A DNA stretch of 64,000 bases from NCBI GenBank assembly GCA_021372895.1, contig JAJFTP010000078.1:1-64000 (forward strand), written 5' to 3'. Both the position numbers and the translations under genes were made by a program. The notes under the pieces were generated by a model, which searched no databases, was not told the origin of the DNA, and saw only the letters and a list, made by a program, of their open reading frames with translations. Positions 37,221 to 53,971 of the stretch are shown piece after piece. Numbering within the stretch: position 1 is the stretch's first letter; each line of letters starts with the position of its first letter. Source of the stretch: Synergistaceae bacterium (lineage in GTDB: Bacteria; Synergistota; Synergistia; Synergistales; Synergistaceae).

Positions 37221-37345
37221 ATGAAAGCAGCAAGAGAGTTCCTGCCGTTGGAACGTCAGGACGCCGAAGGGGCAAGGCCGTAAGGGTTGAAACTCTCAGG
37301 CATAAGGATTGCTGCCGGACAGTACTCTGAAACCGACTCTGGCCT
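37221..37345 (+). ncRNA. Glycine riboswitch (single aptamer)
   Basis: Contains the conserved core of gcvT-type glycine aptamers: AGAGAG at the 5' side, GCCGAAGGGGCAA (37263-37275), AACTCTCAGGCATAAGGA (37290-37308), then GCTGCCGGACAGTACTCTG. P1 can form between GCAGCAAGAG (37227-37236) and ATTGCTGC...CTCT. Only one full aptamer is visible before grdX. The region 37330-37380 repeats CTCTG and TTGCTGC and is likely the expression platform. For a catabolic operon one expects glycine to turn expression on; the sequence alone does not prove the sign. Confidence 0.88.
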
Positions 37346-37933: not shown

Positions 37934-39229
37934 ATGAAACTGGAACTGCTTAAGGCACATGTAAAGAACATAGCATGGGGCGACAGGACCGTGCTTCTGA
38001 AGGATGGCACACTGCAGGTTTCCAAAGAAGAGCTGTTGTCTCAAGTCAACGACCCGGAGTTATTCAAAAGCGTCAATGCGGATATGGCTCGTCCGGGAGA
38101 GAGTACAAGAATAGTTCCCGTCAAGGATGTCATTGAGCCGCGCTGCAAGGTTGAGGGCGGCGGAGAGGTATTCCCCGGGATGATAAGCGACGTTGAATCC
38201 GTCGGTTCGGGAAAGACTTTTGTCCTCGATGGTGCCGCCGTTGTAACCTGCGGCCGCATAGTCGGTTTCCAGGAGGGCATTGTCGACATGAGCGGCAAGG
38301 GTTCGGAGTACACTCCGTTCTCTAAGACAATGAATGTCGTTCTTGTATTTGAGGCCAAGGAAGGCATCGAGGTATATGCCTATGAAAAAGCGTGCCGTCT
38401 TGCTGGGCTGAAGACAGCGCTCTATCTTGCGAAGTGCGCATACGAAGCAGGTGCGGCGGCGGATGAGGTCAAGAGCTATGAAATCCCCCCATTTGCCGAG
38501 AGCATGAAGGCATACCCCGGGCTTCCCAAGGTTGCGTATCTCTACATGCTTCAGTCGCAGGGACTTCTGCATGACACTTATGTTTACGGAATAGACGCGA
38601 AAAGGATCCTGCCGACGATTATCCATCCGAACGAGACGATGGACGGCGCGATAGTCTCCGGCAACTGCGTTTCTGCCTGTGACAAAAACAGCACGTATAC
38701 CCACCAGAACAACCCTGTCATCCGTTCGCTCTATGAGCGTCATGGCAAGGATATCAACTTTGTGGGCGCAATAATCACGAACGAGAACGTGACCCTTGCA
38801 GACAAGCGCCGCAGCGCGGCTTACGCTATCAAAATAGCTAAGATGTTCGGCGTGGATGGTCTGGTGATAAGCGAAGAAGGTTTTGGCAACCCTGACGCGG
38901 ATTTGATTATGAACTGCCGTATAGCAGAACAGTCCGGAATCAAGACAACTCTTATTACAGATGAGTACGCGGGACGCGACGGCGCGAGCCAGTCACTTGC
39001 GGATGCGGCGGTAGAGGCGGATGCCGTGGTCTCTGTCGGCAACGCTAACATGATAATAAATCTCCCTAAGATGGAGAAAATTATCGGTTTCACGGACTAT
39101 GTTGACATCATTGCCGGAGGATTCGACGGTTCCCTGAAGGCAGACGGTTCAATCGAAGTAGAACTCCAGGCAATCACAGGATCTACATGCGAGCTTGGTT
39201 TTAATAAGCTCGGTGCGGAAACCTGGTAG
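37934..39229 (+). CDS. grdE: Glycine reductase component B, GrdE proprotein
   Basis: Substrate-specific component B subunit, made as a proprotein that is cleaved to give two subunits, one with an N-terminal pyruvoyl group that binds the amino group of glycine. 431 residues from ATG 37934 (AGGGAGG seven bases ahead). The cleavage region is SGNCVSACDKNSTYTHQNNP with Asn244-Cys245 the expected scissile bond. Assigned to glycine rather than sarcosine or betaine because of the riboswitch and grdX. Thirteen bases before grdB. Confidence 0.93.
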   Translation: MKLELLKAHVKNIAWGDRTVLLKDGTLQVSKEELLSQVNDPELFKSVNADMARPGESTRIVPVKDVIEPRCKVEGGGEVFPGMISDVESVGSGKTFVLDGAAVVTCGRIVGFQEGIVDMSGKGSEYTPFSKTMNVVLVFEAKEGIEVYAYEKACRLAGLKTALYLAKCAYEAGAAADEVKSYEIPPFAESMKAYPGLPKVAYLYMLQSQGLLHDTYVYGIDAKRILPTIIHPNETMDGAIVSGNCVSACDKNSTYTHQNNPVIRSLYERHGKDINFVGAIITNENVTLADKRRSAAYAIKIAKMFGVDGLVISEEGFGNPDADLIMNCRIAEQSGIKTTLITDEYAGRDGASQSLADAAVEADAVVSVGNANMIINLPKMEKIIGFTDYVDIIAGGFDGSLKADGSIEVELQAITGSTCELGFNKLGAETW

Positions 39230-39242
39230 GAGGGATATACCT

Positions 39243-40544
39243 ATGACATACAGAGTAGTTCATTACATCAACCAGTTCTTCGCCGGCATAGGCGGAGAGG
39301 AAAAGGCCGGCATCAGGCCTGAGTCACGTCCAGGTCCCCTGGGGCCCGGCATGGCATTTAAAGCCGTTTTCGGCAAGGATGCCGAAATTGTCGGGACAGT
39401 TATCTGCGGTGACGGATATTTTGCCGAGAACATGGATAAGGCTACTGATACCGTGATCAAAATGATATCGGAGTTCAAGCCGGATGCCGTTATCGCCGGG
39501 CCTGCTTTCAACGCCGGACGTTACGGAACGGCCTGCGGAGGGGTTTGCGATGCCGTAACGAAGATTCTTGGTATACCTGTGGTAACGGGAATGTATCATG
39601 AGAACCCAGGCGTTGATATGTTCCGCAAGACAGTTTACATCATTGAGACTTCGGACAGTGCTCGCGGCATTAAAGACGCTGTGTCCGCCATGGCAAAATT
39701 TCTTCTGAAGGCGCTCAAGACCGGATCAATCGGCAGTCCCGCCGAAGACGGCTATATGGAGCGCGGGGTGCGTGTAAACTGCTTCTATGATGTTCCCGGT
39801 GCTGAACGTGCCGTTGATATGCTTGTCAAGAAGCTTAAGGGCGAGACGTTCAAGACGGAATACCCGATGCCGCACTTCGACAGGGTCGCCCCTGCGGAGC
39901 CGATAAAGGATATGAAGAACGCTACAATAGCGCTTGTCACATCCGGCGGGATCGTTCCAAAGGGCAACCCCGACCATATCGAGGCCTCAAGCGCGACGAA
40001 GTTTGGCACTTACAGCATCGCCGGAGTTCAGAGTGCTGACGCGGTAGCCTATGCCACTGCGCACGGCGGATATGACCCGACGTATGCCAACATAGATCCA
40101 AACAGAGTCCTTCCGATAGATGTGCTCAGAGATATGGAAAAAGCAGGGGAATTCAAAAAACTTTACGACTATTTCTCAACTACCGTAGGAAACGGGACCC
40201 CCGTTGCGAATGCGAAGAAGTTCGGGACCGAGATCGGGGAGAAAATGAAAAAAGACGGGGTTGACGGCGTGATACTGACCTCCACCTGAGGAACCTGCAC
40301 TCGTTGCGGAGCAACGATGGTGAAGTCAATAGAAAGCTTTGGGATCCCAGTGGTGCACATTTGCACAATAGTACCTATCTCACAGACAGTCGGAGCAAAC
40401 AGAATAGTTCCGGCAGTGGCAATACCGCATCCCCTCGGTGATCCTACGAAGACACCGGAGGAGGAGAAAGTTATCCGCCGTGCAATTCTTGAAAAGGCAC
40501 TTAAGGCGCTGCAGACCCCTATATCCGAACAGACAGTGTTCTAA
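39243..40544 (+). CDS. grdB: Glycine reductase component B selenoprotein, in-frame UGA = selenocysteine
   Basis: 433 residues if UGA 40287-40289 is read as selenocysteine (residue 349). Upstream, MTYRVVHYINQFFAGIGGEEKAG is a GrdB start, preceded by GGAGGG. Downstream of the UGA the frame stays open for 84 more sense codons with GrdB-like sequence, and the active site reads STUGTCTRCG, the family UxxCxxC motif. A bSECIS hairpin sits 12 bases after the UGA. Conventional gene callers would truncate it at 40289. The selenol attacks the Schiff-base-bound glycine to form carboxymethyl-selenoether for transfer to GrdA. Confidence 0.95.
40302..40316 (+). promoter_or_regulatory. bSECIS hairpin of grdB
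   Basis: CGTTGC (40302-40307) pairs perfectly with GCAACG (40311-40316) around a GGA apical loop. Its position 12 bases after the UGA and a G in the first loop positions fit bacterial selenocysteine insertion elements read by SelB. Confidence 0.85.
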
Positions 40545-43700: not shown

Positions 43701-44483
43701 CTAGAACGCAGGAACTACACCCTTCGAAGATAAATTGTCTTTTATGTACTTCTTGACTTCCGGCGAGTTAAACGCTTTCGCAAGAGCTTTGATTTTTGGA
43801 CTGTCCTTGTCTCCGCTTCTTACTGCCAGGACCACCGCATAAGGAGAATCCTTATCTTCAAGCGCCAGGGCCTCTTTTGCCGGGTCAAGGCCGGCATCTA
43901 CCGCGAAGTTCATGTTGATCACGGAGATCGTCGTATCGGGAAGGCTGCGCGGCAGCTGCGGCGCTTCAAGTTCTATTATTTTCAGTTTGAGCGGGTTTTC
44001 AACTATGTCACGGGCTGTGAGCTGATTGCCCGGCTTCATCTTGAGCAGGCCCTCACGCTCAAGCAGTTTGTAGGCGCGGAAACCGTTAGTCGGATCGTTG
44101 GGTACTGCGACGACAGCGCCCTTTTTGATGTCCTTCAGCGATGTTATCTTCTTTGAGTAGATACCTATCGGAAGCATGTGTACTTTTATAAGCGGAATGA
44201 TATCAAGTTTCTTTTCTTTCTTCATGTACTCAAGATACGGTATGTGCTGGAAGAAGTTTGCATCGAGCTCCTTGTTCTGCAGTGCGTAGTTGGGCTGCAC
44301 GAAGTCAGTGAACTCCTTTATTACAAGTTCATAGCCCTCTTTCTTAAGCCCCTCTTTTGCAACAAGCGCTATGTTCTTTGCGGGGAATGGCGTTACTCCA
44401 AGCACGATTTTTTTGTCTGCGGCTGTGGCACAGGCCGGAATCAGGAGTGCTGCGAGAATTGCGATCATAATTGCTTTTTTCAT
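43701..44483 (-). CDS. metQ: MetQ/NlpA-family methionine-binding lipoprotein
   Basis: Substrate-binding protein of a methionine-type ABC importer. 260 residues from ATG 44483, preceded by GAGGAGGAAAA. The signal peptide is MKKAIMIAILAALLIPAC, with a slightly unusual lipobox (Pro at -2); an alternative is signal peptidase I cleavage after ATA. Family motifs: VLGVTPFPAKNIALVAKEGL, FTDFVQPNYALQNKELDANFFQHIPYL and NDPTNGFRAYKLLE. metN and metI are absent, so it must work with a permease encoded elsewhere. Its transcript begins with a Met-rich leader peptide and terminator, which supports methionine as ligand. Confidence 0.92.
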   Translation of the reverse strand: MKKAIMIAILAALLIPACATAADKKIVLGVTPFPAKNIALVAKEGLKKEGYELVIKEFTDFVQPNYALQNKELDANFFQHIPYLEYMKKEKKLDIIPLIKVHMLPIGIYSKKITSLKDIKKGAVVAVPNDPTNGFRAYKLLEREGLLKMKPGNQLTARDIVENPLKLKIIELEAPQLPRSLPDTTISVINMNFAVDAGLDPAKEALALEDKDSPYAVVLAVRSGDKDSPKIKALAKAFNSPEVKKYIKDNLSSKGVVPAF

Positions 44484-44579: not shown

Positions 44580-44614
44580 AAAAAAAGACCGAGCCCAAAA
44601 GACCGGGCCCGGTC
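44580..44614 (-). terminator. Intrinsic terminator in the metQ leader (candidate attenuator)
   Basis: On the minus strand GACCGGGCCC (44614-44605) pairs with GGGCTCGGTC (44596-44587), ten base pairs with one G-U, eight-base loop, then seven or more U. It lies 20 bases after the leader-peptide stop and about 97 bases before metQ, so transcripts must read through it to express metQ. The 5' arm can alternatively pair with GGTCCT (44662-44657) in the leader ORF. Confidence 0.85.
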
Positions 44615-44633
44615 CTGATGCGGCACAGACTGA

Positions 44634-44717
44634 TCAAACGCCGGCCGTTCCAGGAGAGGACCCACCCTTGCCGCACATTATCATAGACATCATTTCGAAT
44701 ATACAGGCATTGTTCAT
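44634..44717 (-). CDS. Met-rich 27-residue leader peptide upstream of metQ
   Basis: ATG 44717, seven bases after a strong AAGGAGG, opens a 27-codon frame ending in TGA at 44634. Residues 8-16 read EMMSMIMCG: four Met codons within six. The remainder is small and Gly/Ser-rich (CGKGGSSPG). It sits between a consensus promoter and an intrinsic terminator, 150 bases upstream of the methionine-binding-protein gene, as expected for a ribosome-mediated attenuation leader. No other function is suggested by the sequence. Confidence 0.65.
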   Translation of the reverse strand: MNNACIFEMMSMIMCGKGGSSPGTAGV

Positions 44718-44765
44718 GGTGTTTCCTCCTTCCCTTTGAGCCGGTTTTTTTATTAAGCTGCTGAG

Positions 44766-44794
44766 ATATTATCCTTTGATCGGCTAAATGTCAA
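44766..44794 (-). promoter_or_regulatory. Consensus sigma-70 promoter of the metQ leader transcript
   Basis: On the minus strand TTGACA (44794-44789) and TAATAT (44771-44766) with exactly 17 bases between. Start expected near 44759, about 40 bases before the leader-peptide ATG. The remaining 44795-44884 shows no feature. Confidence 0.85.
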
Positions 44795-53791: not shown

Positions 53792-53812
53792 ATTAAAAAA
53801 GGAGGAAAATTA

Positions 53813-53971
53813 ATGAAGAAATATGTCTGCACAGTATGCGGTTATGTTTATGATCCGGCAGCAGGGGATCCCGATTCAGGAGTTGCGCCGGGAACGGCGT
53901 TTGAAGAGATCCCTGATGACTGGGTCTGCCCGGTATGCGGAGTGGCCAAGGATATGTTCGAAGCTCAGTAG
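53813..53971 (+). CDS. rub: Rubredoxin
   Basis: A 52-residue single-iron electron carrier. Both cysteine knuckles are present: [12 protein letters not shown] and [12 protein letters not shown], with the conserved aromatic core (Tyr, Phe, Trp) in place. The ATG is preceded by AAAGGAGG. Probably serves oxygen and peroxide detoxification or other redox partners in an anaerobe; no rubrerythrin or desulfoferrodoxin is adjacent. Confidence 0.97.

Follow-up and report, generated by a model that had tools for sequence, protein, structure and literature searches.

A candidate ribosome-mediated attenuator with methionine control codons before metQ in Synergistaceae

Methionine genes are textbook examples of control by riboswitches, T-boxes or repressors, and the classic cases of ribosome-mediated attenuation are trp, his, leu and some others. 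In the window (the whole stretch of 64,000 nucleotides that was analysed), a short open reading frame (ORF) rich in Met codons and an intrinsic terminator precede metQ, which encodes a methionine-binding lipoprotein of the MetQ/NlpA family. This raises the question of whether metQ is controlled by translation of a leader peptide. In this study, the anatomy of the leader, its conservation and its possible RNA structures are described, and the explanations that could account for them are weighed.

Anatomy of the metQ leader

The preliminary description of this locus listed a promoter, an AAGGAGG, a 27-codon ORF with MMSMIM at residues 9-14, a stop codon, a terminator and metQ, and all of these are found where it had placed them (Table 1). 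The protein encoded by metQ matches TIGR00363 (1.7e-57) and PRK11063 (9.4e-59), both below the curated cut-offs, and its nearest MetQ relatives, which place the genome of the window in Synergistaceae (Synergistota), share 81-83% identity. A promoter of the form TTGACA/T-N16-18-TAnnnT is present in 34 of 44 homologous leaders, 59-101 nt 5' of the leader start. In the window leader, the stop codon and the terminator stem are 19 nt apart, and the control Met codons number only four, broken up by Ser and Ile. Even so, no stretch with four Met within six residues occurs among the 20,582 residues of the long frames of the window, and Met makes up 17.3% of the internal residues of 44 leaders, compared with 2.6% in these long frames. 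Because the leader is also conserved, as described below, a chance origin of the Met run is excluded.

Table 1. Features of the metQ leader (window positions) and of leaders for other amino acids in Synergistota
Feature	Position	Strand	Remark
Sigma-70-type promoter TTGACA-N17-TAATAT	44766..44794	-	TTGACA 44794-44789, TAATAT 44771-44766
Shine-Dalgarno AAGGAGG of leader ORF	44725..44731	-	GG near-invariant across 22 aligned leaders
Leader peptide ORF MNNACIFEMMSMIMCGKGGSSPGTAGV, 27 codons	44634..44717	-	present in all close metQ orthologues
Control codons ATG ATG TCT ATG ATA ATG	44676..44693	-	Met 9, 10, 12, 14 = MMSMIM
Possible protector, 5' side: GTGCGGCA at the end of the Met run	44669..44676	-	partner TGCCGCAT 44625-44618; MFE, unoccupied leader
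Antiterminator 5' arm TGGGTCC-TC-TCCTGG, region 2	44649..44664	-	inside ORF, codons 18-23
Stop TGA of leader ORF	44636-44634	-	
Antiterminator 3' arm TCAGGA-CC-GGGCCCG, region 3	44604..44618	-	overlaps terminator 5' arm
Intrinsic terminator hairpin + T7, region 3:4	44580..44615	-	folding and covariation
Terminator stem arms GACCGGGCCC with GGGCTCGGTC	44614-44605 with 44596-44587	-	T7 44586-44580
metQ, regulated gene	43701..44483	-	ATG at 44483
L119, VRRTSFIPDVFSLVLVLVLLISGGSPEVADA, Val/Leu run, before ilvN-ilvC	G000:C64:33207-33314	-	window's genome
L120, MLFKMNQNIIIIIINAAPPRRIGA, Ile6, before 2-oxoacid:ferredoxin oxidoreductase gamma subunit	G000:C81:51985-52156	+	window's genome
L121, MKIKSSTLIRAIDLSVAVYSYAHTDPPRGIGV, Tyr-type run, before PaaK-like ligase	G000:C97:17505-17624	+	window's genome
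L156, Val5, before panB			other Synergistota
L158, FFFSFFF, before family-3 solute-binding-type protein			other Synergistota; Pfam: SBP_bac_3 only
L208, L209, FFF and FF/YYF, before paaK-like genes			other Synergistota
L202, IIII, before threonine-dehydratase-like gene			other Synergistota
L153, Met/Thr, before homoserine dehydrogenase			relatives
L165, Ala4, before class I/II aminotransferase			other Synergistota

Within the span that is open in frame 0, stops occur in the +1 frame of all 44 leaders and in the +2 frame of 29 of them. The substitutions among the 27-codon orthologues (few synonymous changes, 80, compared with 416 non-synonymous ones, and no third-position bias) indicate that the peptide beyond the Met run is free to change. 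This speaks against a functional Met- and Cys-rich small protein, for example a metal-binding one, that would be followed by an ordinary terminator with metQ expressed from a constant fraction of read-through. Such a protein would fit the conservation of the MMMC-type core (MMC in 37 of 44 leaders; Cys 7.6% vs 1.7%), but the codon of this Cys alternates between TGC and CGC and the remainder of the ORF is constrained by its pairing with the terminator, so this explanation was rejected as very unlikely. The Cys that follows the Met run may also be a second control amino acid, although the TGC/CGC alternation suggests a constraint at the RNA level instead.

Two further RNA elements are located on the plus strand of the window: a glycine riboswitch (RF00504, 62.7 bits, 37221-37321) and a SECIS_4 element (RF01990, 48.7 bits, 40290-40327) just past the stop of the ORF at 39195-40289. 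Selenocysteine may be inserted at this stop, so that the frame would continue downstream, as in glycine/sarcosine-reductase-type proteins.

Conservation before methionine genes

Close MetQ orthologues (73-83% identity) were gathered by MetQ similarity alone and not via the ORF. The leader is present at all 20 loci with a close metQ orthologue in related Synergistaceae (13 loci from whole genomes and 7 from public contigs, several representing the same genome twice). The layout consists of a promoter, a Shine-Dalgarno sequence, an ORF of 25-29 codons, a stop, 16-21 nt, an intrinsic terminator and metQ, and the ORFs contain 3-6 clustered internal Met codons with the core M-C/Y-MMM-C/R. The last control Met is located 9-15 codons before the stop (13-15 in most leaders and 14 in most metQ leaders), and 11-27 nt separate the stop from the terminator across the leaders compared. 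The alignment of upstream regions that had been suggested as a check thus shows that the Met codons, the position of the stop, the terminator and an antiterminator between ORF and terminator are all kept. An orthologous leader that retains the terminator and lacks Met codons, named beforehand as the refuting case, was not encountered among the metQ orthologue loci fetched.

The leader is also found before other methionine genes. The genome of the window carries a second copy, MKHSAANSSMMMCMYTRGSSPDPVDA, followed by a terminator and by metN of metNIQ (MetN at 2.7e-84, below the equivalog cut-off). Relatives have the same leader 5' of metN, of metX (MTTRQATMMMCAMMMCGNGGSPPGRTGGC, L161) and of O-acetylhomoserine sulfhydrylase genes (L192, L198 and others). 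The leaders of metNIQ, metN, metX and O-acetylhomoserine sulfhydrylase are an independent tie to methionine genes.

A sequence-only model built from 22 leaders (R1, threshold E<=1e-6) has matches in 82 of 151 Synergistota genomes, and some of these matches are sister leaders for other amino acids. At the same threshold, no match was obtained in 30 genomes outside the phylum (Clostridia, Negativicutes, Desulfovibrio, Campylobacter, Paenibacillus and others) that had been picked for carrying a related MetQ. A weaker R1 match at 53794-53928 of the window (E 0.011) is a false positive that corresponds to the start of a rubredoxin gene.

In these outside genomes, a SAM-I riboswitch is located close to the metQ homologue in 8 of 16 scanned loci (Clostridia, Negativicutes and Paenibacillus). 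SAM riboswitches are common on methionine genes, and the genome of the window has two of them elsewhere, which would suit a metabolite-binding riboswitch (for SAM, Met or similar) with an aptamer that contains the ORF by chance. At the leader locus itself, Rfam returned no match, neither to RF00162 (SAM-I) nor to RF00230 (T-box), while both families occur elsewhere in the same genome; a riboswitch or T-box at the metQ leader was rejected on this ground. Conservation moreover tracks the ORF and its Met codons and not an aptamer, the length of the ORF varies by whole codons, and sister elements on the same chassis switch their control codons with the gene. A riboswitch at this site is therefore regarded as extremely improbable.

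Alternative RNA structures and the proposed mechanism

The terminator stem comprises 10 bp with one G-U pair and extends to 13-14 bp when flanking bases are included in the fold; the 13-bp form has an energy of -22.9 kcal/mol. Covariation, which had been proposed as a further check, is evident here: over 21 leaders, 92.1% of cells are paired, compared with 28-57% when the pairing is slid, and 11 of 13 pairs have changed on both sides. In the columns of the antiterminator in a MAFFT alignment, 75.5% of cells are paired vs 31-54% when slid, and two-sided changes show no excess over shuffles. The absence of column covariation is probably caused by a shift of the antiterminator register between lineages.

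Because column covariation does not exceed that of shuffles, the antiterminator claim rests on a swap test. In 37 leaders, the energy of the leader's own arms is -21.5 kcal/mol vs -17.0 kcal/mol for arms swapped between species (0 of 10,000 permutations), and with one leader per sequence cluster (14 lineages) p = 5e-5; looser clustering to 3 lineages leaves the test without power. The 5' portion of the ORF served as a control, and here own and swapped pairings do not differ. Once the 5' arm of the terminator has been made, 6-12 of its 10-15 bases are engaged by the ORF in the minimum free energy (MFE) structure of each of the 37 leaders.

As a possible antiterminator, GGTCCT (44662-44657) paired with AGGACC (44616-44611) had originally been proposed. 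Both segments are present, but they are a fragment of a longer helix that adopts another register; in the set of 21 leaders, 71.4% of the cells of the short helix are paired, but only 3 of the 21 keep its second pair, so it was replaced by the longer helix. In the window, this helix is extended by CGGC/GCCG and has the stop codon inside its apical loop. The terminator and antiterminator pairings are mutually exclusive. A transcript that ends at 44602 folds into the antiterminator (-30.2 kcal/mol), and the free full-length RNA favours the terminator with a small hairpin (-37.6 vs -30.2 kcal/mol for the antiterminator state). Antitermination must therefore be kinetic, that is, co-transcriptional, as it is in known attenuators. 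A possible third pairing, a protector formed by the Met run with a segment after the stop, has moderate support: its swap test gives p=0.001 over 14 lineages, and the pairing is better than shuffled in 32 of 39 leaders, with MFE showing it in part of the leaders only.

From this anatomy and its conservation, both of which are observed, we infer translation of the ORF, ribosome stalling and a response to methionine, and with high confidence a ribosome-mediated (trp-type) transcription attenuator with Met control codons before metQ. RNA polymerase would make the leader while a ribosome works through the 27-codon ORF. With ample Met-tRNA, the ribosome would reach the stop codon, where it would cover part of the antiterminator 5' arm; the terminator would then form and metQ would not be transcribed. 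With scarce Met-tRNA, the ribosome would stall in the run of control codons, leaving the antiterminator 5' arm free to pair with the 3' arm before the 3' arm of the terminator exists, with read-through into metQ as the result. Without a ribosome, the Met run could pair with the bases that follow the stop, which would favour termination. In the window, about 14 nt separate the first base of the last Met codon from the start of the antiterminator arm (6-18 nt in other leaders), and this start would coincide with the expected front edge of a ribosome stalled at that Met. One point against this reading is that Met also serves as the initiator, so that severe Met starvation would lower initiation on the leader as well.

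Sister leaders and known systems

Partial R1 matches are leaders for other amino acids that share one chassis with the Met leader: the ORF contains a GGGTCC-CTCCTGG-like box and in many cases has G-A or G-V at its end, and a terminator follows. Three of them are located in the genome of the window and others in further Synergistota (Table 1); the protein behind L158 may be a cyclohexadienyl dehydratase. As read by eye from the codon-to-gene list, the Met leader seems to be a member of a wider family in which the control codons (Val/Leu/Ile, Ile, Phe/Tyr, Val) match the gene that follows. In one genome (G043), an Ile-type leader is found twice in succession (L154 and L155, G043:C8:513200-518900) with an N run, an assembly gap, in between, and a further leader is located downstream, before another small regulatory-subunit-like gene. 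The doubled leader may reflect either a real duplication or an error of assembly.

Leader-peptide attenuators that respond to general translation stress, such as antibiotics, are known and look alike, and the metQ leader could in principle sense such stress rather than methionine. Runs of Met, however, go with genes for Met uptake and synthesis, and other runs go with genes for other amino acids, which leaves almost no probability for stress sensing. The sister attenuators, with control codons fitting their genes, favour the attenuation reading, and no other explanation comes close to trp-type attenuation at Met control codons.

In four genomes, two of one genus (G041 and G058) and two of another (G048 and G056), a SAM-I riboswitch with its own terminator is located directly upstream of a Met leader and a metQ-type gene (L217, L218, L219 and L220). 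These riboswitches score above the gathering threshold and are located roughly 60-100 nt 5' of the Met leader. Such a tandem would act as a gate with two inputs in series, open only when SAM and Met-tRNA are both scarce. More broadly, a single modular leader-peptide attenuator, copied and re-coded (Met, Ile, Val/Leu/Ile, Phe/Tyr), is likely to serve Synergistota as a main form of amino-acid control beside riboswitches and T-boxes, with SAM-I riboswitch and Met leader in series forming a two-input gate in some genera.

The metQ leader shares with the trp, his and leu attenuators of Proteobacteria a leader ORF with clustered control codons, a cognate gene 3' of it, mutually exclusive antiterminator and intrinsic terminator, and a possible protector that involves the control-codon region. 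It differs in its control amino acid, Met, in the distant phylum, in an antiterminator whose 5' arm lies wholly within the ORF and whose apical loop holds the stop codon, and in a chassis common to leaders for several amino acids. The SAM-I riboswitch (S-box, RF00162) likewise controls methionine genes via transcription termination, but by means of a SAM-binding aptamer without an ORF, and it is absent at the metQ locus of the window.

For metNIQ of Streptomyces lividans, a Met leader peptide has been proposed, metL (MSTTSDRTPATEATTTPGARCMCRRMCAF), which has two internal Met and a leaderless transcript; a typical terminator was not seen by the authors (PMC8079986). Both peptides precede a methionine importer, and their sequences have no evident similarity. 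The cys operons of mycobacteria have leader ORFs with Cys codons, thus also for a sulfur amino acid, but for Cys and without an intrinsic terminator, and conserved RNA regulation of Met operons was not seen in the same survey of Actinobacteria (PMC1262725). The main text of an intergenic survey of Thermovirga lienii (Synergistota) does not mention such leaders (PMC6429828). The weaker metL candidate is the only comparable published Met leader that was found, and earlier reports may exist in subscription literature. The kind of attenuation is known, and what seems new here is a conserved candidate attenuator with a Met-codon leader. The preliminary description had called such a Met leader peptide unusual, which holds for bacteria at large but not for Synergistota, where these leaders are common.

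A conserved Met leader sensor would mean that bacteria also exploit the stalling of ribosomes at AUG codons, even though Met is the initiator amino acid. A phylum-wide family allows the re-coding of one attenuator for different amino acids to be followed, and the tandems of riboswitch and leader would be natural two-input gates. In addition, these leaders can aid the annotation of amino-acid transporters and catabolic genes in Synergistota, which are poorly studied amino-acid fermenters.
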